Origin: Clostridium sp.
GTDB lineage: Bacteria; Bacillota; Clostridia; Lachnospirales; Lachnospiraceae
DNA: 64,000 nucleotides
NCBI GenBank assembly: GCA_023664605.1
Contig: JAMPFF010000001.1
Coordinates: 512,782-576,781 of the forward strand
Direction: 5' to 3'
The notes beneath the pieces were generated by a model. The model was not told the DNA's origin. It ran no database searches and saw only the letters and a list, made by a program, of their open reading frames with translations. Positions within the stretch are counted from its first letter, which is position 1. Each line of letters opens with the position of its first letter. Shown here piece after piece: positions 4,694 through 21,411 of the stretch. Made by a program: the position numbers and the translations under genes.

Positions 4694-4710
4694 AAAAATG
4701 TAATTCGTTC

Positions 4711-4739
4711 TTGCAAAAAATGCAATTACCTATTATAAT
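4711..4739 (+). promoter_or_regulatory. Promoter of the tRNA-Thr gene
   Basis: TTGCAA (4711-4716), a 17-bp spacer and TATAAT (4734-4739), placed 21 bp before the tRNA 5' end. Confidence 0.7.
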
Positions 4740-4760
4740 AACATTTGTGTTTAGTAATGA

Positions 4761-4833
4761 GCTGGAATAGCGCAGTTGGTAGCGCAACTGATTCGTAATC
4801 AGTAGGTCGAGGGTTCGAGTCCCTTTTCCAGCT
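4761..4833 (+). tRNA. tRNA-Thr, anticodon CGU
   Basis: A complete cloverleaf can be folded by eye. The acceptor stem is GCTGGAA/TTCCAGC with discriminator T at 4833. The D arm is GCGC/GCGC. The anticodon stem ACTGA/TCAGT encloses the loop TTCGTAA, giving anticodon CGT, which reads the threonine codon ACG. The T arm is GAGGG/CCCTT with loop TTCGAGT. The 3' CCA is not encoded. A short T-run follows immediately. No integrated element uses this tRNA as its target here. Confidence 0.95.
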
Positions 4834-4880
4834 CTTTTTCATGTAATAGGAAATTGCTGTAACTGTAGTGAGAATCCAAG

Positions 4881-4907
4881 CGTAGACTGCGGAGTCTGCG
4901 TTTTTTT
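4881..4907 (+). terminator. Rho-independent terminator-like hairpin
   Basis: Stem CGTAGACT/AGTCTGCG with loop GCGG, followed by seven T residues. It lies between the tRNA and the 120-residue protein gene. Confidence 0.6.
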
Positions 4908-4934
4908 ATACGTAAATTATGAAAGGAACTTTGT

Positions 4935-5297
4935 ATGAAATTTATTTGCCTGTTAAAAAATGAGAATACACCGGATAAAAATATCCTGAAAGAAGAATTT
5001 AGAGGGGCGCTTAAGGCTGGTGAGAGCAGGCTGGGCAGCCAACATTTATTCTACCGCTACTTTATCAATGTTAAATATATTTCTTATGATAAAATAGAAG
5101 CCGCTTATTTAAGAGTTGAGAGCGGTGAGTCGGGAGAGTTTTTATTAAAGGAATTTTACCTGATGCTGCGTGTGGACGATAAGGAAGAAAGAAAGCTGCG
5201 CTTTGAAAGGGAGGAGAATGCCAGAACGGTTTTAGCGTATCTGGAGGAGCATTATCCGCATATTGCAGTCGGTTATAAAAAAGCAAAAAGTAGATAG
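4935..5297 (+). CDS. Conserved hypothetical protein, 120 aa
   Basis: I do not recognise a named family. The 120-residue product is soluble and mixed alpha/beta with many charged residues and no signal peptide or membrane segment. The C-terminal third (about residues 80-120) is helical and ends in a basic tail, KKAKSR. The start follows GAAAGGAA. It stands alone between the tRNA/terminator and the structured leader at 5353-5451. Codon use resembles the neighbouring host genes, so it is probably core genome rather than acquired. Confidence 0.7.
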   Translation: MKFICLLKNENTPDKNILKEEFRGALKAGESRLGSQHLFYRYFINVKYISYDKIEAAYLRVESGESGEFLLKEFYLMLRVDDKEERKLRFEREENARTVLAYLEEHYPHIAVGYKKAKSR

Positions 5298-5352
5298 GGT
5301 TTGAATTTATGGGGAATGCTGTTATAATTAGTCTATAGGCTAAGAGAGAAGA

Positions 5353-5451
5353 ATTTGTGCTGGAGCGTCACAAATATGCCCTGATGGCAGACGCAAATTT
5401 GAGATTTGCGTCGCCCCGTCGCGTAAACGCTCCGGAATGGAGATTAAAATG
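5353..5451 (+). ncRNA. Structured leader element, copy A (candidate cis-regulatory RNA)
   Basis: Hairpin ATTTGTG/CACAAAT (5353-5359/5369-5375) presents GGAGCG (5362-5367) in its loop. It is followed by a short TGCC/GGCA hairpin (5377-5380/5386-5389), a 9-bp hairpin GACGCAAAT/ATTTGCGTC (5390-5398/5404-5412), the linker GCCCCGTCGC, and then CGCTCC (5428-5433). CGCTCC can pair either with the loop GGAGCG (a pseudoknot) or, through CTCC, with the Shine-Dalgarno GGAG (5439-5442) of the next gene. A second copy lies at 62749-62847 before an unrelated gene. The architecture suggests translational control; the ligand or signal is unknown. Confidence 0.6.
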
Positions 5452-5715
5452 CCTGAATTAAGTAGGTTTTATGGGATTGTAATTAAAATGATATTTAAAG
5501 ATAATGAAAAACATCACAAACCACATGTGCATGTATACTATGGTGAGTATGAAGCATCTATATCATTAGATGGAGAGGTTTTAGAAGGTAAAATACCCGT
5601 AAAACAATATAGAATGATTTCAGGTTGGATGGCATTGCATGAAGATGAATTATATGCAGCTTGGAACAATGCCGTAAGGGAAAAGCCGATTCCTAAAATA
5701 GAACCGTTGAAATAA
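5449..5715 (+). CDS. DUF4160 family protein
   Basis: An 88-residue DUF4160 protein. The motif HKPHVHVYYGEYEA (about residues 24-37) is the conserved histidine-rich core of the family, followed by LLEG-like and IPVKQYRMI segments. DUF4160 genes are usually paired with DUF2442, as here, and the pair has been proposed as toxin-antitoxin-like; that is not proven. I chose ATG at 5449 (MPELSRF) because GGAG at 5439-5442 is spaced 6 nt from it. An in-frame ATG at 5437 overlaps the Shine-Dalgarno sequence itself. Translation may be gated by the structured leader upstream. Confidence 0.85.
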   Translation: MPELSRFYGIVIKMIFKDNEKHHKPHVHVYYGEYEASISLDGEVLEGKIPVKQYRMISGWMALHEDELYAAWNNAVREKPIPKIEPLK

Positions 5716-5726
5716 GGAGTGAAAAT

Positions 5727-6017
5727 ATGTATATTTTAAATGGAATTGTATATGGTGGAGAACCAAAAGAAAATTTAGAAATATGCAGTGTAAAAGTATT
5801 GGATAATATGATTATGCTTATAACATTTTCAACAGGAGAAACACGCCTATTTGATGCAACAATTTTAGATGGAGAAGTATTTCAGCCTCTAAAATTAGAA
5901 GATATTTTTAAGAATCCTGTTATAGATTATGGCGTGGTTACTTGGGATAATGGAAATATTGATTGTGCACCTGAGTTTATGTATGATAATAGTTATGAAT
6001 ATTCAATGGTGATGTGA
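5727..6017 (+). CDS. DUF2442 family protein
   Basis: A 96-residue DUF2442 protein, partner of the DUF4160 gene 11 bp upstream. Family features are the beta-rich N-terminus with VKVLDNMIMLITFSTGETRLFD (about residues 23-44 in sequence) and the C-terminal VTWDNGNIDCAPEFMYD segment. DUF2442 is a small DNA- or partner-binding fold seen in proposed toxin-antitoxin modules. The start follows AAGGAGTG. The two genes form a short operon under the leader at 5353-5451. Confidence 0.85.
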   Translation: MYILNGIVYGGEPKENLEICSVKVLDNMIMLITFSTGETRLFDATILDGEVFQPLKLEDIFKNPVIDYGVVTWDNGNIDCAPEFMYDNSYEYSMVM

Positions 6018-6030
6018 TTGATAAATGTAA

Positions 6031-6207
6031 CAGTTCAGTCATGCCATTCATAATTTGCCGGAATATACATTATGAATTTATCATTTATGAACTGACCGGC
6101 AAATTATTCATGTCAGCGTCCGCCCTATAGAAAGGATTTAATAATATTGCCTTAGTGAGCAAGCTTTCACGGAGATATTATTAAATCCTTTCTGCATGGC
6201 TGAACTG
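6031..6207. repeat. Large multi-branched inverted-repeat element
   Basis: Outer arms CAGTTCAGTCATGC (6031-6044) and GCATGGCTGAACTG (6194-6207) pair over 14 bp with one G-T. Inside are two long stems. The first pairs 6045-6061 with 6096-6112 (17 bp, few mismatches). The second pairs 6129-6147 with 6175-6193 (19 bp, perfect, AGAAAGGATTTAATAATAT). No reading frame is present. A related right end lies at 1-95. It could be a MITE-like repeat or a structured RNA, and it fills most of the gap between the DUF2442 gene and nrdD. Confidence 0.7.
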
Positions 6208-6230
6208 ATACAAAAAAATGAAATATTATA

Positions 6231-6277
6231 ATACAAGACCTTGACATAAAGAAATGACATGATACAATATATTGTAT
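6231..6277 (+). promoter_or_regulatory. nrdD promoter with two NrdR-like boxes
   Basis: TTGACA (6241-6246), a 16-bp spacer and TACAAT (6263-6268). A perfect 16-bp palindrome ATACAATATATTGTAT (6262-6277) covers the -10. A weaker related box, ATACAAGACCTTGACA (6231-6246), covers the -35. Their centres are 31 bp apart, the spacing of paired NrdR boxes. NrdR is the nucleotide-sensing repressor of ribonucleotide reductase genes, so NrdR control is inferred. Confidence 0.7.
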
Positions 6278-6322
6278 ACGAAAAAATAAAGCCACAAATA
6301 AGGGCAATGTCGGGGGTCAGAT

Positions 6323-8485
6323 ATGAAGATTATTAAGAGAAGCGGTGCGGAAGTAGCTTTTGATTTGGAAAAGATTGTTGCCGCTATCAAAAAAGCAAAT
6401 GACAGCGTAAAGGATAGAGACAAACTTACAGATGAGGAAATTGATTCCATTGCGGAAGTAGTTGCAGACCATTGCGAGGAAATGAAACATTCTCCCAGCG
6501 TCGAGGAAATTCAGGATATGGTGGAGAATCAGTTGATGAAGTACAATGCCTATACAATGGCAAGAAATTATATTACGTACCGCTATAAACGTGCGCTGGT
6601 GCGTAAATCCAATTCTACGGACGAACAGATTCTAACGCTTCTTGAATGCAATAATGAAGAGGTAAAACAGGAAAACTCCAATAAAAATCCAACCGTAAAC
6701 AGCGTACAGCGCGATTATATGGCGGGAGAAGTCAGCAAGGATATTACCAAGAGATTTTTGCTACCATCGGATATTGTAGAGGCTCATGAACAGGGAATTA
6801 TTCATTTTCATGACGCGGATTATTTTGCACAGCATATGCACAACTGTTGTCTGGTAAATTTAGAGGATATGCTGCAAAACGGCACGGTTATCAGCGAGAC
6901 GATGATTGATACGCCGAAAAGTTTTTCCACCGCATGTAATGTCGCGACGCAGTGTATTGCACAGATAGCGAGTTCACAATATGGCGGACAGAGCATTTCA
7001 CTGGCTCATTTGGCTCCTTTTGTACAGGTAAGCCGCGAAAAACTGCGTAAGGAAGTCAGAAGGGAAATGGAACGGATGAACATTTCCCTTTCGGACGAAC
7101 AGATTAATGAGATTGCGGAAATGCGCGTCAAAGAAGAGATTAACCGTGGCGTGCAGATGATACAGTATCAGGTGATTACTCTGATGACAACCAACGGACA
7201 GGCTCCGTTTGTGACCGTGTTCATGTATATCGATGAAGTACCGGAGGGACAGACGAGAGACGACCTTGCGATGGTGATAGAGGAGATGCTTAATCAGCGT
7301 ATCCGCGGCGTAAAAAATGAAAAGGGCGTCTATATCACACCGGCGTTTCCAAAGCTTATTTATGTGCTGGAAGAAGATAATATCCATGAGGACAGCAAAT
7401 ATTGGTATCTGACAAAGCTTGCAGCACAGTGTACGGCAAGAAGAATGGTTCCGGATTATATTTCCGAGAAAATCATGAAAAAGCTAAAAGACGGAAACTG
7501 CTATACCTGCATGGGCTGCCGCTCGTTTTTGACCGTATATCATGACGAGGACGGTAATCCCAAGTTTTACGGCAGATTTAATCAGGGCGTTGTAACGATA
7601 AATCTGGTGGATGTGGCTTGTTCTTCCGGAAAAGATATGGATAAATTCTGGAAGATATTTGATGAGAGATTACAGTTATGCAGGCGTGCGCTGATGTGCA
7701 GGCATGAAAGATTAAAGGGAACGCCGTCCGATGTAGCGCCGATTTTGTGGCAGTACGGCGCGCTGGCAAGACTCAAAAAAGGCGAGCCGATAGACAAGCT
7801 GCTCTATAATGGGTATTCAACGATTTCATTAGGTTATGCGGGGCTTTGCGAATGCGTCCGCTATATGACGGGAAAATCGCATACAGACCCGGAGGCGACG
7901 CCGTTTGCGTTGGAGATTATGCGTCACTTAAACGACGCCTGCCAGAAGTGGAGAAAAGAGACAAATATTGATTTCAGCTTGTATGGAACGCCTTTGGAAT
8001 CTACGACATATAAGTTTGCCAAGTGCTTGCAGAAGCGTTTCGGCGTTATCCCGGATGTTACGGACAGAAATTATATTACAAACAGCTATCACGTGCATGT
8101 GACGGAAGAAATGAATGCTTTTGATAAACTATCGTTTGAGTCGCAGTTTCAGGAGTTGTCGCCGGGCGGCGCAATCAGTTATGTGGAAGTGCCGAATATG
8201 GAGAATAATCTGGATGCGGTGCTTGCCGTGATGAAGCATATTTATGACAATATTATGTATGCGGAGTTAAATACAAAGAGCGATTACTGCCAGGTCTGCG
8301 ATTATCACGGAGAAATTAGGATTGTAACGGATGACGACGGCAAACTGGTGTGGGAGTGTCCGAACTGCGGCAACAGGGAGCAAGATAAAATGAATGTGGC
8401 AAGGCGTACCTGCGGCTATATCGGCACACAGTTCTGGAATCAGGGGCGTACGCAGGAGATTAAGGAAAGGGTTCTTCATCTATAA
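6323..8485 (+). CDS. nrdD: Anaerobic ribonucleoside-triphosphate reductase (class III)
   Basis: Reduces ribonucleoside triphosphates to deoxynucleotides in anaerobes using a glycyl radical. The 720-residue product begins with an ATP-cone regulatory domain (about residues 2-92, MKIIKRSGAEVAFDLEKIV). A large barrel domain follows, with the family motifs HDADYFAQHMHNCCLVN and CYTCMGCRSFLT. The C-terminus has the zinc site CQVCDYHGE...CPNCGNREQ and the radical Gly in RRTCGYIG (about residue 698). Length is normal. The start follows GGGGGTC. The activase gene nrdG lies 91 bp downstream and the paired NrdR-like boxes lie upstream. Confidence 0.97.
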   Translation: MKIIKRSGAEVAFDLEKIVAAIKKANDSVKDRDKLTDEEIDSIAEVVADHCEEMKHSPSVEEIQDMVENQLMKYNAYTMARNYITYRYKRALVRKSNSTDEQILTLLECNNEEVKQENSNKNPTVNSVQRDYMAGEVSKDITKRFLLPSDIVEAHEQGIIHFHDADYFAQHMHNCCLVNLEDMLQNGTVISETMIDTPKSFSTACNVATQCIAQIASSQYGGQSISLAHLAPFVQVSREKLRKEVRREMERMNISLSDEQINEIAEMRVKEEINRGVQMIQYQVITLMTTNGQAPFVTVFMYIDEVPEGQTRDDLAMVIEEMLNQRIRGVKNEKGVYITPAFPKLIYVLEEDNIHEDSKYWYLTKLAAQCTARRMVPDYISEKIMKKLKDGNCYTCMGCRSFLTVYHDEDGNPKFYGRFNQGVVTINLVDVACSSGKDMDKFWKIFDERLQLCRRALMCRHERLKGTPSDVAPILWQYGALARLKKGEPIDKLLYNGYSTISLGYAGLCECVRYMTGKSHTDPEATPFALEIMRHLNDACQKWRKETNIDFSLYGTPLESTTYKFAKCLQKRFGVIPDVTDRNYITNSYHVHVTEEMNAFDKLSFESQFQELSPGGAISYVEVPNMENNLDAVLAVMKHIYDNIMYAELNTKSDYCQVCDYHGEIRIVTDDDGKLVWECPNCGNREQDKMNVARRTCGYIGTQFWNQGRTQEIKERVLHL

Positions 8486-8486
8486 A

Positions 8487-8560
8487 AAGCGCAAACCTGC
8501 GGTCAGCAAGCGCAAACCTACGGTCAGCGCGGCAAGAATTGCGGGGCAATTCTCGCGGGA
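8487..8560 (+). repeat. Two direct repeats and a hairpin between nrdD and nrdG
   Basis: A 21-nt unit beginning AAGCGCAAACCT (8487-8507) is repeated nearly exactly at 8508-8528. It is followed by the hairpin AGAATTGC-GGG-GCAATTCT. They occupy most of the nrdD-nrdG gap and are not translated in the chosen frames. Confidence 0.5.
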
Positions 8561-8576
8561 TGTGAGAGGGGTTTAT

Positions 8577-9098
8577 ATGTATTGTTCGGAAATCAAGGGG
8601 TATGATATAGCGAATGGACCGGGGGTGCGGGTCTCCTTATTTGTCAGCGGCTGTACGCATCACTGTAAGGGCTGTTTTAATGAAATGACATGGGATTTTC
8701 AATATGGCAGGGAGTTTGGTGAAGTAGACATCGGACGTATTATAGATATGCTGGCGCCGTCCTATATCGCGGGACTGACCCTCCTTGGCGGGGAGCCGAT
8801 GGAGTATGTCAATCAGGAGGGGCTTTTGCCGTTAGTGCAAAGAGTAAAGGAAACCTATCCCCAAAAGACTATCTGGTGCTATACGGGTTATCTTTATGAT
8901 AAGGATATTATCGAAACTTTCTGTTCCAAATGGGAAGTGACAAGGAAAATACTTTCCTGTCTGGACGTGATAGTGGACGGAGAATTTGTAGAGGATTTAA
9001 AAGATATCAGCCTGCGTTTTCGCGGTTCTACCAATCAGAGAATCATCGACGTAAAAAAAAGCAGGCAGGCTGAAGAAATTGTATATTGGCAGGACTAA
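8577..9098 (+). CDS. nrdG: Anaerobic ribonucleoside-triphosphate reductase activating protein (radical SAM)
   Basis: Generates the glycyl radical on NrdD using S-adenosylmethionine and a [4Fe-4S] cluster. The radical-SAM cysteines are in SGCTHHCKGC (about residues 25-34; CxxxxxxxC-type spacing seen in NrdG). Other motifs are GGEPM (residues about 67-71) and WCYTGYLYD. With ATG at 8577 the product is 173 residues, typical for NrdG. An in-frame upstream extension to 8394 overlaps nrdD and is rejected as coding. The start follows GAGAGGGG. A convergent terminator at 9097-9120 separates it from the broken permease gene. Confidence 0.95.
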   Translation: MYCSEIKGYDIANGPGVRVSLFVSGCTHHCKGCFNEMTWDFQYGREFGEVDIGRIIDMLAPSYIAGLTLLGGEPMEYVNQEGLLPLVQRVKETYPQKTIWCYTGYLYDKDIIETFCSKWEVTRKILSCLDVIVDGEFVEDLKDISLRFRGSTNQRIIDVKKSRQAEEIVYWQD

Positions 9099-9313: not shown

Positions 9314-10138
9314 ATGGAAAATGAGAAAGAATTTAGTACAGTGTGGGAATCATTAAGAATATCCAATGATTTTATGTTCGGAAAAGTCATGCAGGATGCA
9401 GAACTATGTAAGGAACTTTTGCAAAGAATCCTGCCGGATTTGGAAATAGACCATATAGAATATCCGGAGGCACAGAAAGCAATAAGACTTGATGCAGACG
9501 CTAAAAGCGTCAGACTGGATGTTTATGTGAGGGATGGTAAAGGAACGGTCTATGATATTGAAATGCAAGTCGCAGATACAAAGGAACTGCCGAAAAGAAG
9601 CCGTTACTACCAGAGTATGATAGACTTGCAGATGATAGATAAAGGACAGTCCTATAAGAAACTGAAGCCAAGCTATGTAATTTTTATCAGTCCTTTTGAT
9701 ATTTTTGGTAAGGGAAAACATATTTATACTTTTGAGAATATCTGTAAGGAAGATACCAGTATTACTTTAAAGGACGAGGCGGTGAAGATATTCTTAAATG
9801 CCGACAGCAGTCAGGATGATGTCAGCAAGGAATTAAAGGCATTTCTTGATTATGTAGCCGGGAAAGAGTCAGAAGATGATTTCGTGCAGAGATTAGAGGA
9901 AGCGGTAAAAGAGGCAAGGAAAAACAGGGAATGGAGGCATGAATATATGACACTATTAATGCGTGACCAAGAAAATATGGAAAAAGGCATGGAAAGGGGT
10001 AAATCAGTTGGAGAAGAAATGATGCTTTTGTTGATTCAAAAATTAGTGGATAATAACCGGGTTGAGGATATATCAAGGATAAAGGATGATATAGATTATC
10101 GCCGGAAATTATATAAAGAATATAATATATCTATTTAA
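9314..10138 (+). CDS. Rpn family recombination-promoting nuclease / PD-(D/E)XK transposase-like, copy 1
   Basis: A 274-residue member of the Rpn (PDDEXK_2) family of DNA-cleaving nucleases, in E. coli linked to recombination and anti-phage toxicity. The catalytic signature is visible as LDVYVRDGKGTVYDIEMQ (about residues 73-90), that is D...ExQ of the PD-(D/E)XK fold. Residues 1-220 are almost identical to the gene at 37023-37862, but the last 45 residues (KSVGEEMM onward) are unrelated. An in-frame ATG at 9947 (MTLLMR) is preceded by GGAATGGAGG 9 nt upstream, so a 63-residue short form is likely also made. It is the first gene of Island 1. Confidence 0.9.
   Translation: MENEKEFSTVWESLRISNDFMFGKVMQDAELCKELLQRILPDLEIDHIEYPEAQKAIRLDADAKSVRLDVYVRDGKGTVYDIEMQVADTKELPKRSRYYQSMIDLQMIDKGQSYKKLKPSYVIFISPFDIFGKGKHIYTFENICKEDTSITLKDEAVKIFLNADSSQDDVSKELKAFLDYVAGKESEDDFVQRLEEAVKEARKNREWRHEYMTLLMRDQENMEKGMERGKSVGEEMMLLLIQKLVDNNRVEDISRIKDDIDYRRKLYKEYNISI
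9947..10138 (+). CDS. Predicted intragenic short Rpn product (in-frame internal start)
   Basis: Same frame as the full-length rpn gene, starting at residue 212 (MTLLMRDQENMEKG). The Shine-Dalgarno GGAATGGAGG (9928-9937) sits 9 nt upstream. In E. coli, Rpn short forms made this way act as antitoxins to the full-length nuclease. The same start and ribosome site are kept at 11218, 37656 and, in broken form, 10200, which argues for selection on the internal start. No direct evidence of expression is available. Confidence 0.5.
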   Translation: MTLLMRDQENMEKGMERGKSVGEEMMLLLIQKLVDNNRVEDISRIKDDIDYRRKLYKEYNISI

Positions 10139-10530: not shown

Positions 10531-10758
10531 TTGACATTACAAGAAAAAGTAGTGCAAAAAGTTAATGGATTGTCAGAGGATAATCTACAGTTTTTATTAG
10601 AGATGATAGAGCGTTTTATGCAGCCTAGGTCAATAGAAAAAGAAAAGACTGTGATTCCGGATAGGATTGGTATTGCAAAGGGGCAAAAATTGTATGATGA
10701 TGATTATGATTTTGACGAAATGAATCCGGAAATAGAAAAAATGTTTGGAGGGTTGTAA
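10531..10758 (+). CDS. Putative antitoxin of a PIN-domain toxin-antitoxin pair
   Basis: A 75-residue acidic protein translated from TTG at 10531, preceded by GGAAGGTG; no ATG lies at a suitable place. The N-terminus (LQEKVVQKVNGLSEDNLQFL) is predicted helical and the C-terminus is rich in Asp/Glu/Tyr (YDDDYDFDEMNPEIEKMF), as in antitoxins that wrap a PIN toxin. Its stop codon overlaps the start of the PIN gene (TAATG), typical of type II pairs. The family is not certain; DUF2281-like or VapB-like are possible. The pair sits between two orphan Rpn tail cassettes. Confidence 0.7.
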   Translation: MTLQEKVVQKVNGLSEDNLQFLLEMIERFMQPRSIEKEKTVIPDRIGIAKGQKLYDDDYDFDEMNPEIEKMFGGL

Positions 10759-11162
10759 TGAAGTTGTTATTGGATACACACATTATTCTCTGGGCTTTAG
10801 ACGATAATCCTAAATTGACAAGCCAGACCAGAAATTTAATTATAGATGCAAAAAATGAGATTTATTATAGTTCGGCATCTATTTGGGAAACCACGATTAA
10901 ATATATGTCGAAACCGGATAAAATTTGCATCAGTGGTTCTAAATTGTCTGAATTATGTAAACAAATGGGGTATCATATGTTGCCTATTACTGATGAACAC
11001 ATAAAAGTATTGGAAACATTGGTATATCATAATGATTATCAATCTCATAATGACCCGTTCGATAGGATTATGATTGCACAGGCAAAAGCAGATGGATTAA
11101 GATTTATTACTCATGATTCTAAAATTCCATTTTATAAAGAAAAATGTATAATATCAGTATAA
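10758..11162 (+). CDS. PIN-domain ribonuclease toxin, VapC-like
   Basis: A 134-residue PIN-fold endoribonuclease, presumably toxic unless bound by the upstream antitoxin. The acidic metal-binding residues are visible: Asp in LLLDTHIILWAL (residue 6), Glu in SASIWETTIKY (about 42), Asp in NDPFDRIMIAQA (about 98) and Asp in FITHDSKI (about 116). Length is normal for the family (PF01850-like). It overlaps the antitoxin by one base and uses ATG 10758. No ribosome site stands alone, so translational coupling is likely. Confidence 0.88.
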   Translation: MKLLLDTHIILWALDDNPKLTSQTRNLIIDAKNEIYYSSASIWETTIKYMSKPDKICISGSKLSELCKQMGYHMLPITDEHIKVLETLVYHNDYQSHNDPFDRIMIAQAKADGLRFITHDSKIPFYKEKCIISV

Positions 11163-14010: not shown

Positions 14011-14045
14011 AGAGCCAAATAAGTTTGAAATACTTATTTGGCTCT
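14011..14045. terminator. Bidirectional terminator-like hairpin
   Basis: AGAGCCAAATAAG (14011-14023) pairs perfectly with CTTATTTGGCTCT (14033-14045). It lies between the GTPase gene and the convergent XRE gene and overlaps the XRE stop codon. Confidence 0.75.
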
Positions 14046-14363
14046 ATGGTTTAGCCCGTTAATGACTGCCTGAATGGTATCTAATTGGAAATCATCCATT
14101 TTTTTTAATTCTTCCACAATTTCATTTATTTTAATTGGATTTGGATTATCTTCATCAAAAAATTCCTTTGGAGAAATTTGAAAATACTCGCAAATATAAA
14201 AGAAAGCCTGTAGAGAGGGAAGCGTCAGTTTATTTTCTATGCGGTTGATATAGCTGCCATTCTGACCGAGAGAAAGGCTCATTTCCCGCGCAGAGACATT
14301 TTTCTTAGTTCGTAAAGAAATAATTCTTTCAACAAAGTAATCCTCAAACATAGTTTTCACCAC
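14034..14363 (-). CDS. XRE family HTH transcriptional regulator
   Basis: A 109-residue regulator with an N-terminal Cro/CI-type HTH (RTKKNVSAREMSLSLGQNGS, about residues 17-36, then YINRIENKLTLPSLQAFFYI). A short C-terminal helical region (EIVEELKKMDDFQLDTI) may dimerise. It is divergent from the TerB/HNH/AAA+ operon and shares the intergenic region with it. A perfect palindrome lies between the -35 and -10 hexamers of that operon (14435-14449). I infer that this protein represses the operon and probably itself. The ATG at 14363 is preceded, on the minus strand, by AAGGTGG. Confidence 0.88.
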   Translation of the reverse strand: MVKTMFEDYFVERIISLRTKKNVSAREMSLSLGQNGSYINRIENKLTLPSLQAFFYICEYFQISPKEFFDEDNPNPIKINEIVEELKKMDDFQLDTIQAVINGLNHRAK

Positions 14364-14426: not shown

Positions 14427-14455
14427 TTGACATGAGATATAAAATATCTTATAAT
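14427..14455 (+). promoter_or_regulatory. Consensus promoter with operator in the spacer
   Basis: TTGACA (14427-14432), a 17-bp spacer and TATAAT (14450-14455) match consensus exactly. The spacer contains the perfect palindrome AGATAT-AAA-ATATCT (14435-14449). Repressor binding there would block RNA polymerase. An AT-rich untranslated leader of about 185 nt follows, in which I see no gene or strong hairpin. Confidence 0.8.
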
Positions 14456-14649
14456 TATGTGTAGAATTATGTCGATTGAGTTATAGCAAATAGTAGTAAA
14501 ATTTTTATGGACAAAAAAGAATAGATATTATGTTCATTGAATGTAATAGTTGGAATTTATTGATTTTTAGTGATTATGATGTTGCCAATTATTATTTGTG
14601 AACAAATATTGAGAAAGATTAACAATAAACAAATACGGAGGTTAAAGGA

Positions 14650-15054
14650 ATGTTTTTGTTTGAGCTAAAGAATACACAAAAGGAGTTGTTTCTTGATTTG
14701 AGTATTTATTTATCTATGAGTGATGGGGAGTTTGCAGATTCTGAAAAGAATATAATTCTTCAAATGTGTAAAGAAATGGGAATCAAGGAGAGATTTACCC
14801 CAGTTGTTAATTTTGATGATGCGCTAAATCAATTGGCGGAGAATGCAACTATAAGAGAAAAACGTATCATTTTATTAGAAATTGTTGGGGTTATTTTAGT
14901 CGATGGTGTATTTGCTCCTGAAGAAGAAAGTATTATGAGAAAAATTTCTAATTCGTTAGCGATTGATTATTCTCAATGTGAAAAAGCAATTTCAATAGTA
15001 CAAGATTTATATAAGGTATATTCAAAGGTTGGTTCATTTTTAACCAGTAAGTAA
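14650..15054 (+). CDS. TerB-like helical protein
   Basis: A 134-residue all-helical protein with two TerB-type acidic turns: MSDGEFADSEKNII (about residues 22-35) and LVDGVFAPEEESIM (about 86-99). TerB domains bind metal and anchor multiprotein stress complexes linked to tellurite resistance, phage inhibition and membrane-associated ATPases. Length matches single-domain TerB proteins. The ATG follows ACGGAGGTTAAAGGA. It is the first gene of a tight operon running to 20195; the next start is 13 bp after its stop. Codon use is AT-rich compared with host genes. Confidence 0.8.
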   Translation: MFLFELKNTQKELFLDLSIYLSMSDGEFADSEKNIILQMCKEMGIKERFTPVVNFDDALNQLAENATIREKRIILLEIVGVILVDGVFAPEEESIMRKISNSLAIDYSQCEKAISIVQDLYKVYSKVGSFLTSK

Positions 15055-15066
15055 GGAGAAATGACC

Positions 15067-15873
15067 ATGTTAGATTTATTTTTTCGTTATAAGCAAGTGG
15101 GAGATAGCAAACGCGCTTTGTTGGTTGGACAAAACATGGTAAATCTTAATCCTGCTAATAAAGATTGCTTTGAAGCATATTTTGATTATCTGATATCTCT
15201 TGCACAAAGTGATGATATTTTAGTTGCAAAGTCTTTTTTACAACAAGCAACTGGAGTATTAGCATTTTTTTCTGAAAACGTCAAAATTGATGAGGAGACG
15301 GTTGAATTTATAATAGGTAAAGAAAATGAGTTGAATCGCGTTGCCGTACTATTAAAAAAACAGGAAGAGAATGCAAATAGGGAGGTAATCAGGCAAGAAG
15401 TTACATATCATAATGACGCATTGGAACTTATTGAACAATTATTGGAAAAAATTGAAAAGTGCGAGAGACTGAATGATTTCAATAAATATATTGATAATTT
15501 GGGTAAGGTCGATCAGAGTATCGATCAAGACAGATTTAGTGAAAGACAAAAAGAAAAATATGCGGTGTTAATGCAAAAGAGTTCAAATATTGTAAATTCA
15601 AAATTGACATATTTTGAAAATATTAAGAACCGTGAATATAATATTGACGCTATTGAGGCATATAGTAAGATATTTAATATGTTTAAGAACGGTAAGGTGG
15701 CTGATGACCATAAAGATGTGATAAAAGCATTATTTATGTTCGATGCATCAAAACTATATAACGAAACATTGGTTTATTATAATCATGTTTATAATTATAT
15801 CCTTAGCAAACTTAGTGACGAAGAAAAATTCACTTTAACGAAATATGCAATACTGTGTGAAAAAAAGAGATGA
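15067..15873 (+). CDS. Uncharacterised helical-repeat protein, second gene of the TerB operon
   Basis: A 268-residue soluble protein that I cannot assign. The first part (about residues 1-60: RYKQVGDSKRALLVGQNMV, then LNPANKDCFEAYFDYL) has a TPR-like helix-turn-helix pattern. The middle (about 95-150) is a likely coiled coil (LLKKQEENANREVIRQEV, then LIEQLLEKIEKCERL). I chose ATG 15067 because GGAG lies 8 nt upstream; the in-frame ATG at 15061 is too close to it. The following gene starts 5 bp after its stop. It may be the scaffold of the system, by inference from the coiled-coil and repeat character. Confidence 0.7.
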   Translation: MLDLFFRYKQVGDSKRALLVGQNMVNLNPANKDCFEAYFDYLISLAQSDDILVAKSFLQQATGVLAFFSENVKIDEETVEFIIGKENELNRVAVLLKKQEENANREVIRQEVTYHNDALELIEQLLEKIEKCERLNDFNKYIDNLGKVDQSIDQDRFSERQKEKYAVLMQKSSNIVNSKLTYFENIKNREYNIDAIEAYSKIFNMFKNGKVADDHKDVIKALFMFDASKLYNETLVYYNHVYNYILSKLSDEEKFTLTKYAILCEKKR

Positions 15874-15877
15874 TTTT

Positions 15878-17011
15878 ATGAATTATAACTCACTTGGACT
15901 ATTGAAATACACACAACTTAATAAACAAAGAGTATCAGATAAAGCCATAGGTTCTGTGATGCCTGTTGCGATAGCTGATGTAGCCAATGTTTTTGGAACT
16001 GCTACTGTAGGATTTAATAATCAGTATAATGAGTTTTTAGATGTCTTGGGAACTCGTAGATTTGAGTTGGCGCACACAGTTCAAACTAATTTATCTCAGA
16101 ATCCGAATTATACAGGAGCGCGAAATGCAGGAGTTAAATTAGCATGGCAGTATGAAAAAGCAGATATTGAAATGGGTGGAAGAGGCTCGGCTAATTGGAA
16201 TCAAATAGAGCGTGATGAAATACTTCATTCAAAAACTGGCACTGTATCAGGAGCAGAGGGGCATCATCAAAAAAATGTTATTGATCACCCTGCATATCAA
16301 GCTGATCCGGATAATATTAAGTTTTATAAATCCAGACAGGAACACTTACAAGAAGGACACAATGGAAATTTTCAGAATGAATCAGATGCACCTTTTATAG
16401 ACAAAAATATGATGCTTGAAAAGACAAATAGGCATAGAGTTTTTGTGAATGAAATAAAAGGCGCTGGTATTTCAGCGGCTATAGGGTTTGGAGTGGCATT
16501 TACAATTTCAGCTGTTGCTGAATTAGCAAGGGTCGGAATCTCTTCGATAGAAATGGGAGATTTCCTTTGTAATTCTCTTAGGAGTGGAATTGAAGGAGGA
16601 ACTATTTCAACAGTAATTTATGGAGCAGGAAGAATGATTTCAATGTTGATTCAGAAGCAAGGTGTAGATTTACTTACTAATACAGGAGTACTTATGGATT
16701 TTGCGTCTGTTGGAACAGTATCTATACTTTTAGTTTCGACATATCAATTTATAAAAATGAAAATGGATGGTGTAGAGACCTCTGTGGCATTTAAAGAAGT
16801 TGGTAAACGGGCATTGTTTTCCTTTTCCGTGCTTGCGGTTTCAATGATTGCGCAAGGTGTTTATGGCGGTCATGCAGGTTTTATTGTTTCTACCAGTGTT
16901 GGTCTGATTGTGCTTACATTAAGTATAGCTGATGTGTTGCATCAGAGAAAACTTGAAACATGTATTAAGGAGTATGCGATTGAGGAATATAGGTCACTCA
17001 TTGTAATATGA
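15878..17011 (+). CDS. GHH/HNH-type nuclease fused to hydrophobic membrane region
   Basis: A 377-residue protein. Residues about 115-175 have the HNH/endonuclease VII pattern of polymorphic-toxin nucleases: VSGAEGHHQKNVIDHP, then DPDNIKFY and EHLQEGHNGNF, i.e. paired His, DPxNIxF, EH and a final H-x-G-N. From about residue 195 the protein turns hydrophobic and Gly-rich, with several candidate membrane helices (GAGISAAIGFGVAFTISAVA, GTVSILLVSTYQFI, LIVLTLSIADVL). The nuclease therefore precedes a membrane region, unlike secreted toxins where it is C-terminal. ATG 15878 follows a weak site 5 bp after the previous stop. The next gene encodes a SUKH-like protein, a usual immunity partner of such nucleases. 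Confidence 0.75.
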   Translation: MNYNSLGLLKYTQLNKQRVSDKAIGSVMPVAIADVANVFGTATVGFNNQYNEFLDVLGTRRFELAHTVQTNLSQNPNYTGARNAGVKLAWQYEKADIEMGGRGSANWNQIERDEILHSKTGTVSGAEGHHQKNVIDHPAYQADPDNIKFYKSRQEHLQEGHNGNFQNESDAPFIDKNMMLEKTNRHRVFVNEIKGAGISAAIGFGVAFTISAVAELARVGISSIEMGDFLCNSLRSGIEGGTISTVIYGAGRMISMLIQKQGVDLLTNTGVLMDFASVGTVSILLVSTYQFIKMKMDGVETSVAFKEVGKRALFSFSVLAVSMIAQGVYGGHAGFIVSTSVGLIVLTLSIADVLHQRKLETCIKEYAIEEYRSLIVI

Positions 17012-17022
17012 CGAGGTAGGAT

Positions 17023-17394
17023 ATGGATTATTATTCATTTTTTGAAAAGTTGCAAAGGATGGATTCAAGGGTTAAATTTGTTAAAGTTAATAAAAGATTG
17101 TTATGTGACAAGATTAACATTCCTGAATTTTATCAAATTTTGAATCCGGTTAATGTAGAATTTGAGTTTCATGATGGCATAGTAAAGTTAGAACCATTTG
17201 AAAAATTGTCGGCATTGAATGAAGAGTATCAATATGTTAAAGCAGATTGTGTATTTGCTATATGTAATGGAGATCCAATTTATACCAGAGATGGGAAAAT
17301 ATATACATGTGTTCATGGATCAAAATGTGTAGTGGAAGAAAAAATTGCTGAATCAGTTGGAGAACTGTTTGAGCAAGTTTATCACACTTTATAG
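17023..17394 (+). CDS. SUKH (SMI1/KNR4)-like putative immunity protein
   Basis: A 123-residue protein whose second half follows the SUKH pattern: ADCVFAICNGDPIYTRDGKI (about residues 77-96), then YTCVHGS, then EKIAESVGELFEQVY. In SUKH proteins this region has hydrophobic-FA-x-x-x-GDP, a short strand and the closing IAxSxxxFL helix. Many SUKH proteins neutralise nucleases of polymorphic toxin systems. It is encoded directly after the HNH nuclease gene (11 bp gap), as immunity genes usually are. The assignment rests on pattern recognition rather than a family search. Confidence 0.6.
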   Translation: MDYYSFFEKLQRMDSRVKFVKVNKRLLCDKINIPEFYQILNPVNVEFEFHDGIVKLEPFEKLSALNEEYQYVKADCVFAICNGDPIYTRDGKIYTCVHGSKCVVEEKIAESVGELFEQVYHTL

Positions 17395-17410
17395 TAGGAA
17401 GGAGTTCATT

Positions 17411-17836
17411 ATGATTAAGTATGTTGGAATTATGGTTGGGGGAGTTGCATTAGGCATTATCATGGACAGAATTATTATTGCTGTTATGGAGAATCAAAAG
17501 CTTGAAAAGGAAAAAATTCTGGAAAAATGTTTCGGAGAACCTATGTATGCAAGTTCATTTTCGATGAGTGAGGTAAGGGATTGGATCAAGTCAAGAGAAG
17601 CTTTGTTGCAAGATGGCGGTAAGGCAATTGTCTTGAAAGCAAATTCTGAAACTTTGAAAAGAATCGGAAAGAATCTTGATATTGGTAATAATTTAAAAAA
17701 TAATATTGTTATTGCGATTGTGGATGAAGCAGGTAAGAATATATCGGCTTCTGTATTAATTAAGTATGAAACATTGGATGCCAAGCTGGATGAAGCATTG
17801 AGTAAAGGCAACGGTGTTCTTGTGGTGGGGGCTTAG
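17411..17836 (+). CDS. Membrane-anchored uncharacterised protein, 141 aa
   Basis: One N-terminal membrane helix (VGIMVGGVALGIIMDRIIIA, about residues 4-23) is followed by a cytoplasmic alpha/beta domain. That domain contains MSEVRDWIKSREALLQDGGK and two hydrophobic strands (NNIVIAIVDEAGKNISASVL). I do not recognise the family. ATG 17411 follows GGAAGGAG at good spacing; an upstream in-frame start at 17345 lies inside the previous gene and is rejected. The next gene begins 3 bp after its stop. It is one of three consecutive single-helix proteins likely to place the system at the membrane. Confidence 0.7.
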   Translation: MIKYVGIMVGGVALGIIMDRIIIAVMENQKLEKEKILEKCFGEPMYASSFSMSEVRDWIKSREALLQDGGKAIVLKANSETLKRIGKNLDIGNNLKNNIVIAIVDEAGKNISASVLIKYETLDAKLDEALSKGNGVLVVGA

Positions 17837-17839
17837 ATT

Positions 17840-18088
17840 ATGTTAGGATGGATTTTACTTGGTATTGCTACTGCGGCTGTTGGTGTTGTGATTATTAGTG
17901 GAATAGTCACTAAAAACCGTATTAAAGAAAAGCTGAGAGAACGTGGAATTAAGGAGGCAATGATTACAGAGATTAATAAGTGTACTAATACAGTGAAACT
18001 TGAAGAGTTGGGCAGTGAAAAGATCATAGAAATCAGAGGGGATGACTTAGATAGTGAATTAGATGAATATGACACTATATTTGTATAG
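17840..18088 (+). CDS. Small membrane-anchored protein, 82 aa
   Basis: An N-terminal membrane helix (MLGWILLGIATAAVGVVIIS) and a short acidic cytoplasmic part containing EINKCTNTVKLEEL. The same arrangement, with similar words (ELINECDNTVSLSALNDL), occurs in the 121-residue protein at 18490-18855, so the two are probably paralogues. No named family is recognised. It is in the middle of the operon with 3-12 bp spacings. Confidence 0.65.
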   Translation: MLGWILLGIATAAVGVVIISGIVTKNRIKEKLRERGIKEAMITEINKCTNTVKLEELGSEKIIEIRGDDLDSELDEYDTIFV

Positions 18089-18100
18089 AAGGTGGTATAT

Positions 18101-18475
18101 ATGAATAGGGATAAAGGCAACGAGAAACATTCATCCATATCTATAAATGATTTTACTGATGCTGTAGCAGAAGTGTTGTATAAAAAAGGATATAAAGAGA
18201 TAGTAACCTTTGATGAAATTGTACAGTATGCTCTTGTAAGAAAGAAAAGCAATTCTAGAATAAAAGCTTTTGTTGTTTCTGTAAAAAAGAATTATGATCC
18301 ACAAAATGGAAATGACAAGCTAATTATTGTTCAAGGATTATTGGATGAGGACAATAAGCCAATTTCTCTTGATGGCAAAGAAAGTGAAAGCCGAATTATT
18401 CATACAAGAACAATCGACAAAAATTTTATAGATGTACTTAATGGAGCAGAAAGCAAAATAGTGAGACTTTACTGA
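18101..18475 (+). CDS. Uncharacterised soluble protein, 124 aa
   Basis: No family recognised. Alpha/beta, soluble, with a helical N-terminus (SISINDFTDAVAEVLYKKGY) and a central hydrophobic strand (IKAFVVSVKKNY, then KLIIVQGLLDEDNKPI). ATG 18101 follows GAAGGTGG; an in-frame GTG at 18092 overlaps that site. It lies between the two small membrane-anchored paralogues in the same operon. Confidence 0.65.
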   Translation: MNRDKGNEKHSSISINDFTDAVAEVLYKKGYKEIVTFDEIVQYALVRKKSNSRIKAFVVSVKKNYDPQNGNDKLIIVQGLLDEDNKPISLDGKESESRIIHTRTIDKNFIDVLNGAESKIVRLY

Positions 18476-18489
18476 GGGGAAGGGATAAT

Positions 18490-18855
18490 ATGTTGGCATT
18501 ATTGGCAGGTATAGTAGGTTTAATAGCAATGGGTTGTTTAGTAGCATATGCTGTAGTTTTAACATTTAAATGGCTTAGAAATAAAATCTCTGAAAAATTA
18601 GCCAAAAAAAATGTTAAGAAAGTGGTAGTTGCGGATTTGGAAGAGTTAATTAATGAATGTGATAATACAGTTTCGTTAAGTGCTTTAAATGATTTAGTGG
18701 ATGAGGGATACACTCATATGATGGCAGATGTTGGATATGATGGAAAAATAGTGGGCGATGTTGAAGTGCTAAAGGATGAAAATGATGCAATTGATAAAGA
18801 TGTTGAAGAACTCATCAATCGTACACATCAGGGAATGGTAGTTGTGGAGGAATAG
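18490..18855 (+). CDS. Membrane-anchored protein, 121 aa, paralogue of the 82-aa protein
   Basis: An N-terminal membrane helix (about residues 1-28, MLALLAGIVGLIAMGCLVAY) is followed by a basic juxtamembrane segment and a cytoplasmic acidic domain (VVVADLEELINECDNTVSL). The last 40 residues are strongly acidic. It shares topology and word order with the product of 17840-18088, from which it may have arisen by duplication. The ATG follows GAGGGGAAGG. The AAA+ gene starts 5 bp after its stop, which suggests a physical link to the ATPase. Confidence 0.65.
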   Translation: MLALLAGIVGLIAMGCLVAYAVVLTFKWLRNKISEKLAKKNVKKVVVADLEELINECDNTVSLSALNDLVDEGYTHMMADVGYDGKIVGDVEVLKDENDAIDKDVEELINRTHQGMVVVEE

Positions 18856-18860
18856 GCAAA

Positions 18861-20195
18861 ATGAAGATATATTGGTGTATTCCAGAATTGCTTTTTAATA
18901 CAAAAAATGCTGATGAACACAAAAAGGATTGTAACATCCTTGAAAATGATATAAGAAAGTATTATGGGCAGGTGGAAGTGGAAATTGTTGGTCAGAAAAA
19001 TCAGGATAAAATAGAAATTTATGTTATGGGGAAACCGAGATACGAAGGTTTCCAAGAAGAAATTCAAAAATCTATTATCACAGCAGTAATAAAATGTTAT
19101 GGAGAAAGTGCAAAGCAAAGAATTCAAATTAAATTGAATTATGCAGCATTTAACCCGAATTTTGTGCCAAAGAGTGATTGTTCTTTGAATCAGCAGGAAA
19201 ACTTATCGTCTATTCAAAAAAAAGAAGTCGAAACAAGAGAGAAAGACAGTGAATATGATTATGAAAAATTGTCAAATAATTATCAAGCTGTTGAACCAAA
19301 ATTCTCTTTTGATCAGGTGATACTTCCACAAAAAACTCTTAATCAGGTTGAAGAAGCAATTGGAGTCTTAGAAGTTGAAGCAAAGGTTTTTGATGAGTGG
19401 GGACTTCGTGCAATTATTCCGGAAGCAACATCTGCGCTTAGTTTTTATGGCCCACCAGGAACTGGAAAAACTATGACAGCTGAAGCAATAGCACATAAGT
19501 TAGGAAAAAAAATCCTTCGTGCTACTTATGCAGATGTAGAAAGTAAGTTTCATGGGGAAGGACCTAAAATGGTGAAAGCTATATTCAGAGCTGCTGAAAG
19601 GGATGATGCTGTGTTATTCTTGGATGAATCGGATTCGCTTTTATCGAAACGATTAACGAATGTTTCTGATGGTTCAGCGCAAGCTATTAACTCGATGAGA
19701 AGCCAGTTGCTTATAAGTCTTGAGAGTTTTAAAGGAATTGTTATATTTGCAACGAATTTAGTTGTTAATTATGATAGAGCTTTTTTATCCAGATTAATTA
19801 ATGTTGAATTTACAAATCCAACAGCTGCTGAACGGAAAAAGATATGGTGGAATCATTTAAAAACAGATAAAATTCATATTCCGCTTGCTGCGGATGTGGA
19901 TATTAATTGTTTAGCTGAATCATATGAATTATGTGGAAGAGAAATCAAGAATGTTGTTAAAAATGCCTGTGTTTCCGCAGCATTAAAAAAACAGGAGATT
20001 GTTGAGCAAGAGGATTTTATCATTGCATGTGAAAAAGCAATTGATGAAAGAACACGTGTCAATTCCGCTAAGGATCAGACAAAGATAGGTGATGATACTG
20101 CGTCTGAAGAAAAGAAAGAGAAGTTAAAGGATGCTATACAGAAAAAAATTGATGCAGGAACAATTGATATTGTCAAGTCGAATGCAATAGAGTAA
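18861..20195 (+). CDS. AAA+ ATPase, last gene of the TerB/HNH operon
   Basis: A 444-residue protein with one AAA+ module. Walker A is YGPPGTGKTMTAEAIA (about residues 195-210), Walker B is AVLFLDESDSLL (about 250-261), sensor 1 is VIFATNLV, the arginine-finger region is YDRAFLSRLINVEF, and a C-terminal lid contains CGREIKNVVKNAC. The domain is of the FtsH/Spastin/CDC48-like type that remodels proteins. The N-terminal 130 residues are not assignable and may bind substrate. It likely powers a complex with the TerB-like and membrane-anchored proteins. The operon appears to end here; about 200 bp of AT-rich non-coding DNA follow. Confidence 0.85.
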   Translation: MKIYWCIPELLFNTKNADEHKKDCNILENDIRKYYGQVEVEIVGQKNQDKIEIYVMGKPRYEGFQEEIQKSIITAVIKCYGESAKQRIQIKLNYAAFNPNFVPKSDCSLNQQENLSSIQKKEVETREKDSEYDYEKLSNNYQAVEPKFSFDQVILPQKTLNQVEEAIGVLEVEAKVFDEWGLRAIIPEATSALSFYGPPGTGKTMTAEAIAHKLGKKILRATYADVESKFHGEGPKMVKAIFRAAERDDAVLFLDESDSLLSKRLTNVSDGSAQAINSMRSQLLISLESFKGIVIFATNLVVNYDRAFLSRLINVEFTNPTAAERKKIWWNHLKTDKIHIPLAADVDINCLAESYELCGREIKNVVKNACVSAALKKQEIVEQEDFIIACEKAIDERTRVNSAKDQTKIGDDTASEEKKEKLKDAIQKKIDAGTIDIVKSNAIE

Positions 20196-20397: not shown

Positions 20398-21411
20398 ATG
20401 AACCCCAAATCATCCAAAAACATCCGCACTCTGGATATCTATGTACGCTTATGCGAGGGAAAAACAATAAATAAATCCGAGGAAGCTAAAAAGCATGGTG
20501 TAGATGAACGCTCCATTCAGCGTGACATTGATGACATTCGTATATTTCTGGCGGAACGCAGCGTAACAGATGCTGCAGATACCAGAGCAATTACATATGA
20601 TAGGAATAAAAAAGGATTTGTCATGACCGGCAGTGAAAACGCGTTCATGGATAACAGCGAAATTCTGGCAGTCAGTAAAATCCTCTTAGAGAGCCGTGCA
20701 TTTACCAGAAAAGAAATTACGACAATTCTGGACAAGCTGCTGCTTGGCTGTGCGCCCAAAGGGAGCATGAAGTTAGCGGCAGAGTTGATTGCCAATGAAA
20801 GATACCATTATGTGGAACTGCATCATAAGTCTCATATTAAAGATAAACTATGGGAACTTGGCAGCGAAATCAAGCAATGTAATCTTTTAGAGATTGTCTA
20901 TTACAGACAGGTGGATTCGGGAAACCCGGTCAAACGCTGTATACAGCCGGTGGCGCTTTTATTTTCCGAATACTATTTTTATTTGAATGCCTACATAGTA
21001 GAGAAGAATGAGCAGGGGGAATATGTCCGCCAGTATGATTATCCGGCTGTTTTTAGGATTGACAGAATAAAGTCATATAAAGAATTGGGCGAAAAGTTTC
21101 AGATTCCTTATGCAAACCGTTTTGAAGAGGGGGAATTTCGTAAGCGCATTCAGTTTATGTATGCCGGGGAACTTGTCAGACTACAATTCCGGTACAGCGG
21201 TAAAAGTGTGGAAGCCATTTTGGACAGGCTTCCTACGGCCAAGATAATCAGCACAGACAAAGACAACAGCATTATTGAAGCGGAAGTTTATGGGAAAGGA
21301 ATTTTAATGTGGCTGCTTAGTCAGGGAGCGATGGTTGAAGTGTTAAAACCGGAGTCTTTCCGTGCAGAAATGAAAGAAACCTTGCTGCAAATGATAAAAA
21401 AATATGAATAA
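20398..21411 (+). CDS. WYL-domain HTH transcriptional regulator (Island 1)
   Basis: A 337-residue regulator. An N-terminal winged HTH (about residues 5-65: TINKSEEAKKHGVDERSIQR, then DIDDIRIFL) is followed by a WYL domain (about 140-240, with CNLLEIVYY and PVALLFSEYYFYLNAY) and a WCX extension containing RLPTAKII. WYL regulators often control phage-defence islands and sense nucleic-acid ligands. The protein at 38498-39454 in Island 2 is a homologue. A TGACA-N5-TGTCA site lies 80 bp downstream and three more lie in Island 1; this protein is the first candidate to bind them. ATG follows AAAGGAGC. Confidence 0.92.
   Translation: MNPKSSKNIRTLDIYVRLCEGKTINKSEEAKKHGVDERSIQRDIDDIRIFLAERSVTDAADTRAITYDRNKKGFVMTGSENAFMDNSEILAVSKILLESRAFTRKEITTILDKLLLGCAPKGSMKLAAELIANERYHYVELHHKSHIKDKLWELGSEIKQCNLLEIVYYRQVDSGNPVKRCIQPVALLFSEYYFYLNAYIVEKNEQGEYVRQYDYPAVFRIDRIKSYKELGEKFQIPYANRFEEGEFRKRIQFMYAGELVRLQFRYSGKSVEAILDRLPTAKIISTDKDNSIIEAEVYGKGILMWLLSQGAMVEVLKPESFRAEMKETLLQMIKKYE

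Follow-up and report, generated by a model that had tools for sequence, protein, structure and literature searches.

IetAS consists of the AAA+ protein IetA and a partner, IetS, taken to be a protease. Shango, in the part of its description used here, combines TerB, an ATPase and a DEAD helicase (PMC10250203). Tox-GHH nucleases are on record as paired with SUKH proteins, which are listed as their immunity proteins, and the published nuclease motif comprises WxxE, W, G[HQ]H, NIxF and [DE]H, according to the sections of Zhang et al. 2012 (PMC3482391) that we drew on.

We compared these systems with a nine-gene operon in the window, a 64,000-nucleotide stretch of a Clostridium sp. contig. With the Tox-GHH/Imm-SUKH pairs, as presented in those sections, the operon shares all elements of the nuclease motif, an adjoining SUKH gene and the exchange of domains on a constant carrier. 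It differs from them in that the effector has no known trafficking domain, the toxin domain precedes a membrane domain, and the genes sit in an operon with an AAA+ ATPase and small membrane proteins. As in Shango, so far as the part used here describes it, a TerB-like protein and an ATPase share one operon, but here they stand with an HNH nuclease, a SUKH protein and small membrane proteins. We rejected Shango membership because the nine genes include no helicase (one lies at 30890-32629, 10.7 kb away) and none of ten proteins had a Shango-labelled PADLOC match; the TerB protein had no PADLOC match. The ATPase matches IetA profiles (3.2e-26). Membership of IetAS was nevertheless rejected, since the match to IteA scored 82.4 bits against an NCBI cut-off of 510 and the operon gave no protease or peptidase match. 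VCP/Cdc48-like and proteasome-activating ATPases have the AAA+ module in common with the window ATPase, which differs in having one AAA module, its own N-terminal domain and linked membrane proteins. The original prediction knew of no named system with this gene set, and we likewise found no close PADLOC match. The set was also undescribed in the titles and abstracts from a full-text literature search, a weak negative given the thin coverage of subscription papers and bioRxiv.

The nine adjacent genes form a real operon, with gaps of 3-16 bp, and purifying selection acts on them (Table 1). The XRE-family protein likely controls the operon. Divergent XRE-type genes, recognised by eye, also precede the operon in L017, L021, L028 and L112, and in L011 one stands divergently before the WYL gene. 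The WYL relative in L011 lies 5' of the coiled-coil gene and is 50% identical to the window copy over residues 80-316. The suggested location in an island, read as fitting transfer, held up: the operon is sited in a mobile island, with a DUF932-YqaJ backbone around it that recurs in L011 and L042 and a serine recombinase in its surroundings (Pfam scan). A gene for a Leo-like GTPase adjoins the operon in the window.

Table 1. Features of the operon and its flanking regulators in the window
Feature	Position	Strand	Remarks
XRE-family regulator (HTH_3)	14034..14363	-	divergent to operon; Pfam HTH_3 1.2e-6
TerB-fold protein, 134 aa	14650..15054	+	accessory; Pfam TerB 6.1e-10
Helical/coiled-coil protein, 270 aa	15061..15873	+	accessory; without Pfam match
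Effector, Tox-GHH HNH nuclease and C-terminal membrane domain	15878..17011	+	Pfam Tox-GHH 1.4e-12
SUKH-fold protein, probable immunity protein	17023..17394	+	AF2 and Foldseek/VIA-align
TM1, core small membrane protein, 141 aa	17411..17836	+	one N-terminal helix
TM2, core small membrane protein, 82 aa	17840..18088	+	hhalign to TM3
sol, core small soluble protein, 124 aa	18101..18475	+	hhalign to TM1
TM3, core small membrane protein, 121 aa	18490..18855	+	hhalign to TM1
Cdc48-like AAA+ ATPase, 444 aa	18861..20195	+	Pfam AAA 4.1e-24
WYL-domain regulator	20398..21411	+	202 bp 3' of operon; Pfam WCX 2.1e-7, WYL 9.3e-6

The TerB, GHH-type HNH, SUKH and AAA+ assignments of the original prediction were borne out by profile or fold tests. 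The effector scored 47.8 bits for Tox-GHH (PF15636, cut-off 25) and carries all five motifs (W90xxE93, W107, G128HH spanning G128-H130, N146IxF spanning N146-F149, and E155H156). Its nuclease domain covers approximately residues 81-170 and is followed by a C-terminal membrane domain (approximately 182-377) with hydrophobic segments at 196-214, 269-287 and 336-354. Secreted polymorphic toxins have an N-terminal trafficking domain and a C-terminal toxin; a Pfam scan found only Tox-GHH in the effector and no trafficking domain, and here the toxin domain is N-terminal to the membrane domain. In L018 the same membrane domain is joined to an unrelated N-terminal half in place of the nuclease; identity is 46% to the window effector and 52% to that of L017 and is confined to the membrane domain. 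The domain swap is known from this single locus. By eye, the L018 and L021 effectors had suggested PD-(D/E)XK nucleases; this idea was dropped, as no such Pfam match was found, PDB sequence searches gave nothing better than 0.47 and BLAST did not join these two effectors.

The product of the gene next to the nuclease adopts the SUKH fold in its AF2 model, and by analogy with the recorded pairing it is probably the immunity protein of the neighbouring nuclease. The SUKH gene is present in the three loci with the HNH domain, on which the linkage rests, and is missing from L018, where the TerB and coiled-coil genes are retained and the effector is followed directly by TM1, with nothing between. 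Elsewhere, in L012, a Tox-GHH gene adjoins a canonical SUKH gene.

The TerB protein scored 39.9 bits for PF05099 (cut-off 24.4); its profile matches the tellurite resistance protein 2ou3 (2.1e-5), and it has relatives in four other loci. Relatives of the coiled-coil protein are confined to four loci, those in which the effector ends in the same membrane domain. The protein is best conserved near its C-terminus and is a probable partner of that domain, as its distribution suggests; the earlier description of it as TPR-like was unsupported.

The core consists of the small proteins and the ATPase. TM1, TM2 and TM3 each combine one N-terminal membrane helix with a small domain, and sol is soluble. 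The small domains are probably cytoplasmic; the stretch that follows the helix has more lysine and arginine than the one preceding it in 13 of 17 TM1, 11 of 11 TM2 and 18 of 19 TM3 sequences. As judged by profile comparison with hhalign, the core small proteins are related to one another: TM2 aligned with TM3 at 94% (E 1.3e-7; down to 50% without the helices), sol with TM1 at 84% (E 7.6e-6) and TM3 with TM1 at 94% (E 8.7e-8). The pairings of TM3 with sol (5%) and TM1 with TM2 (2%) were insignificant. As controls, unrelated profiles did not exceed 0.6% in ten pairings, and none of 180 column shuffles exceeded 2.3%. The small proteins had no convincing match in Pfam, PADLOC or PDB, including a PDB fold search with the TM1 AF2 model (pLDDT 82.6). 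The ATPase is a classical AAA+ protein (PF00004, 85.9 bits) with Walker A GPPGTGK at residues 197-203 and Walker B LFLDE at 252-256 in a 22-row alignment. Its N-terminal domain is variable, and its best PDB profile match is a VCP-like ATPase (1.8e-51).

We then assessed which genes travel together. Most of the loci were collected by a pattern scan, which gave 29 loci of 81 stretches, and they are not an even sampling. Of 34 testable AAA+ orthologues (from Clostridia, Synergistota and Cyanobacteria), 31 had at least one small-protein relative within 2.5 kb upstream, as detected with profiles built partly from the counted loci; the labels had originally been obtained by iterating from the window proteins. 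The exceptions were L036, L096 and L092, the last counted as a testable orthologue. None of 13 more distant AAA+ genes, L089 among them, had an upstream small protein. Orthologues L042 and L099 and the distant L056 were left out because they had no upstream DNA, and L025 (titled Bacteroidetes) and L036, both from contigs of <7 kb, may be misbinned. When nine genomes were searched whole, 11 of 12 TM1 matches coincided with the AAA+ locus; the remaining one (G1355:C45) sits where a contig ends and looks like the second half of L022, a split locus. The accessory genes are rarer: TerB was found in 5 of 36 loci, the coiled-coil gene in 4 and HNH with SUKH in 3. Because each occurs in so few loci, we rejected one fixed nine-gene system. 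Going by gene content, the conserved unit is the small proteins followed by the AAA+ gene, not the nuclease. The proposal of nine genes as one system therefore stood in part: all nine recur in L017, with L018 (no SUKH, another N-terminal effector domain) and L011 (no TerB) partial, but only the small proteins and the ATPase are constant. Genes never co-occurring, or absent HNH or TerB folds, had been set beforehand as refuting outcomes, and neither was observed.

The genes that precede the core differ among L018, L030, where an M48-like protein is encoded, and L057, which has a weak match to an EEP nuclease and an 861-aa protein that includes a fused TM1-like domain. A protein of 1392 aa is encoded 51 bp 5' of TM1 in L031, and a similar protein lies further away in L027. 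A GTPase that seemed common to L018 and the window was dropped, since the L018 gene (7935-9143) reads by eye as HydF, beside a HydG-like gene.

Our leading, though tentative, reading of the operon is an AAA+ machine that is anchored in the membrane and, in this mobile island, armed with a polymorphic nuclease-immunity cassette; the machine would gate the nuclease. The small domains would dock the AAA+ ring on the cytoplasmic face, and the nuclease would be kept at the membrane, silenced by SUKH and the coiled-coil partner. The small proteins or TerB might sense infection or damage to the envelope, upon which the ring would pull apart or extract the complex, and the freed nuclease would cleave DNA and halt the cell. 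Immunity conferred by SUKH proteins is typical of toxins delivered to other cells, which counts against such a gated in-cell nuclease. Any anti-phage role would be conjectural; the Leo-like GTPase and WYL genes beside the operon would be compatible with phage defence. With somewhat less confidence, we also consider that the core could be an undescribed class of membrane-docked AAA+ machine in which one new small domain recurs as several diverged copies, ranging from Clostridia to Cyanobacteria and serving as a shared platform for exchangeable effectors (HNH here; candidates in L018, L030 and L057).

The gene 5' of the core is on the opposite strand in nine loci (L027, L028, L037-L041, L095 and L022/L112; mechanical ORF calls). 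With no effector in the operon at at least nine loci, the core has a use without the nuclease, a point against our leading reading, and it also occurs in distant phyla including cyanobacteria, where sol relatives are found. These observations, and an ATPase nearest to VCP-like segregases, would suit a machine for envelope quality control or stress, a segregase of the Cdc48/FtsH-like kind with adaptors in the membrane and no part in conflict, with HNH-SUKH as selfish cargo, an addiction module stabilising the island. We consider this rather unlikely: the distribution is patchy, unlike housekeeping (2 of 391 genomes of the class and 1 of 398 of the phylum, counting the genome of the window itself), merely 16 bp separate SUKH from TM1, and the slot before the core holds differing genes.

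An improbable alternative is that the HNH-membrane protein is delivered to neighbouring bacteria, SUKH shields the producer and the core aids export or loading. Tox-GHH does occur as a secreted toxin elsewhere (fused to LXG in L013), and SUKH is its listed immunity in the sections used of PMC3482391, but the effector's domain content and order argue against delivery, as does a Pfam scan of 20 neighbouring proteins in the window and 10 from the operon region, which matched no secretion-system or phage-tail family. That HNH and SUKH alone form a type II-like toxin-antitoxin pair, the other operon genes being uninvolved, is very unlikely, despite their adjoining genes and joint absence from L018, because the coiled-coil gene and clear effector membrane-domain relatives adjoin the AAA+ core in all 4 loci found, which argues for joint function, against which stands a weak membrane-domain match in G200 (8.3e-4, residues 251-320) with no adjoining core gene.

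If the membrane-anchored machine reading is true, it would give bacterial conflict biology a further class of AAA+ machine at the membrane, one whose toxin cargo can be exchanged, and would tie TerB, SUKH and WYL genes to a defined, expressible gene set. The toxin-immunity pair offers a quick experimental way in, and the small-protein family supplies profiles with which to find further loci.

The operon follows a divergent XRE regulator in a 3.59-Mb genome. It consists of a cassette (TerB, a coiled-coil gene, an effector joining an HNH Tox-GHH nuclease to a C-terminal membrane domain, and SUKH) and a core, in which the small proteins TM1, TM2, sol and TM3 precede a Cdc48-like AAA+ ATPase. We compared it with the closest homologous operon, L017. 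Protein identity was 58–81% across all nine genes, 72–81% for the core genes and 58–69% for the cassette genes, with SUKH the lowest. Since dN was 0.12–0.27 and dS ranged from 1.5 to saturation for all nine, all are genuine genes. With intergenic gaps of 3–16 bp and dN far below dS throughout, the tightly spaced nine-gene operon of the original prediction holds.

We assessed the linkage of the small proteins to the ATPase. The locus set started from a two-sequence AAA+ alignment, which retrieved 29 loci from a collection of 84,980 species genomes; other loci came from further searches. We scored 50 AAA+ genes (48 with one profile and two initially missed) and took as close orthologues the 36 with E ≤ 1e-110, of which 34 were testable, having ≥ 300 bp upstream. 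In 31 of these 34, the 2.5 kb upstream held one or more same-strand relatives of TM1, TM2, TM3 or sol; L036, L092 and L096 had none in that range. Among the 14 more distant AAA+ genes, none of the 13 testable ones had a small-protein relative upstream. When nine complete genome sequences were searched with TM1, 11 of the 12 matches were at AAA+ loci. The twelfth lies at a contig end resembling the upstream part that the split L022 locus lacks, and the two are probably halves of one locus. On the 80 viral contigs kept, the best AAA+ gene (3.9e-89) is distant too, and small-protein relatives occurred on one, L115, which carries that gene. A gene near this core-like set reads by eye as a resolvase.

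By profile comparison, the small proteins are one family. TM1 matched TM3 (94%, E = 8.7e-8; 91% with helices removed) and sol (84%, E = 7.6e-6; 87%), and TM2 matched TM3 (94%, E = 1.3e-7; 50%). As controls, none of ten pairings with coiled-coil, TerB and SUKH profiles exceeded 0.6%, and none of 180 column shuffles exceeded 2.3%. TM3 versus sol (5%) and TM1 versus TM2 (2%) were insignificant, so sol and TM2 are joined only via intermediates. By the positive-inside rule, positive charges flank the cytoplasmic side of membrane helices. Here they come after the helix in 13 of 17 TM1, 11 of 11 TM2 and 18 of 19 TM3 sequences having one (of 18, 11 and 21), so that the small domains are probably cytoplasmic, on the same side as the ATPase. 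The predicted TM1 structure (pLDDT 82.6) had no convincing match in the PDB. For the AAA+ profile, VCP-like ATPases were the best match (1.8e-51).

The position before the core is variable. Four of 36 loci (window, L017, L018 and L011) carry both the coiled-coil gene and the membrane domain of the effector; three have the HNH domain together with SUKH, and five have TerB (upstream in the window, L017, L018 and L025, downstream in L057). In L018 the effector has been swapped in part: its membrane domain is kept (46% identical to that of the window across residues 182–376), its N-terminal half differs and has no family match above the cut-off, and TM1 follows directly with no SUKH gene. Elsewhere the slot holds a Peptidase_M48 match (L030, 2.3e-4), a below-cut-off Exo_endo_phos match (0.018) and an 861-aa protein with a C-terminal TM1-like domain (L057), or an Hsp70-TPR protein (L061, a Planktothrix plasmid). 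A protein of ~1400 residues, similar in the two Synergistota loci L027 and L031, ends 51 bp before TM1 in L031. In each of the cyanobacterial loci L035, L037 and L038, the divergent gene before the core reads as a STAND NTPase, from a Pfam NB-ARC match in L035 (6.2e-10) and by eye in the others; their sol relative has roughly double the length and seems to contain two domain copies. In nine loci (L027, L028, L037–L041, L095 and L022/L112), mechanical ORF calls place the preceding gene on the opposite strand, so the operon there is the core alone; L020, L023, L026, L032 and L058 end too near the core and are outside this tally. Together, the other slot genes and the core-alone operons indicate that the nuclease is cargo, carried by a system that also occurs in its absence. 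The original prediction is corrected chiefly on this point. As a reading of the whole, a stress or quality-control machine carrying a selfish toxin cargo is plausible but less probable than the one preferred below.

Among the papers listed by full-text literature searches, none described this gene set. Shango combines TerB, an ATPase and a helicase (PMC10250203), whereas the operon has no helicase, and its TerB protein had no PADLOC match. IetA models match the AAA+ protein, but far below the equivalog cut-off. In the window and L011 a WYL gene adjoins the operon, and L021 has one nearby, in a separate upstream unit with a protein having a below-cut-off zinc-ribbon match; this fits the combinations of WYL with TerB and HNH domains described in PMC4012209. 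SUKH immunity is typically a defence against toxins that pass from cell to cell, which favours an interbacterial toxin; that the effector has no known trafficking domain weighs against it, and this reading is rated slightly below the stress or quality-control machine.

Features of the window and of compared loci
Sequence	Feature	Coordinates	Strand	Remarks
Window	PDDEXK_2 family transposase-like genes	9314-10138, 37023-37862	+	flank operon and recombinase
Window	PIN-domain protein	10758-11162	+	2.7e-12; upstream of operon
Window	GTPase, C-terminal hydrophobic segment	12786-13988	+	PADLOC LeoA 4.9e-12, LeoBC 5.5e-10; phrog_16468 7.5e-64
Window	Nine-gene operon	14650-20195	+	
Window	Large serine recombinase	32926-34794	+	Resolvase and Recombinase domains; downstream of operon
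Window	Second classical AAA ATPase	41041-42537	+	PF00004 1.9e-29
L012	Tox-GHH protein	1055-2594	-	adjoins canonical SUKH-1 gene (PF09346 8.7e-12)
L012	Further Tox-GHH-like fragment	2917-3456		
L027	~1400-residue protein	3784-7998	+	upstream of core; helicase-like by eye
L031	~1400-residue protein	4650-8828	+	upstream of core; helicase-like by eye
L057	Ser/Thr kinase and 432-aa protein	1257-4019	+	Pkinase 4.3e-31, PASTA 4.3e-6; upstream of EEP-like gene and core
L115	Core-like set	1-2176	+	IMG/VR predicted viral contig; TM1-like (4.4e-7) and TM2-like (6.4e-5) before AAA+ (3.9e-89)

The setting is mobile. DUF932, YqaJ, Rad52-like and DUF5688 genes lie downstream, and the DUF932-YqaJ segment is 65–71% identical in DNA to segments that follow the operon in L011 and L042; these two loci therefore have a common mobile backbone with the window. 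The serine recombinase is likely the island's integrase. Just upstream of the regulator, the GTPase is a candidate Leo-like defence gene of the same island; the PIN-domain protein is possibly the toxin of a toxin-antitoxin pair, and the second AAA ATPase was absent from the listed matches of the operon ATPase. Within the order, a two-row model detected close AAA+ orthologues (E ≤ 1e-130) in four of 392 genomes; at 1e-50 there were 11, the other seven having more distant AAA+ genes. The class gave 2 of 391 and the phylum 1 of 398, the window's own genome being counted at all three ranks. Synergistota gave 7 of 149 (four found earlier in the analysis) and the cyanobacterial class, at 1e-100, 1 of 194, the sample's centre genome itself. 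G060, a genome of the window's genus, had no match in any of four sequence searches.

The comparisons establish which genes are present, how they are related in sequence and predicted fold, that the core genes are linked, that L018 carries a swap and that the setting is mobile. Our preferred reading of the operon's function goes beyond this and is tentative. The ATPase would dock at the membrane, SUKH and the coiled-coil protein would silence the nuclease, and infection or envelope stress might lead the ATPase to release it. We file the cassette under Tox-GHH/SUKH; more excitingly, the core may represent a novel type of machine.
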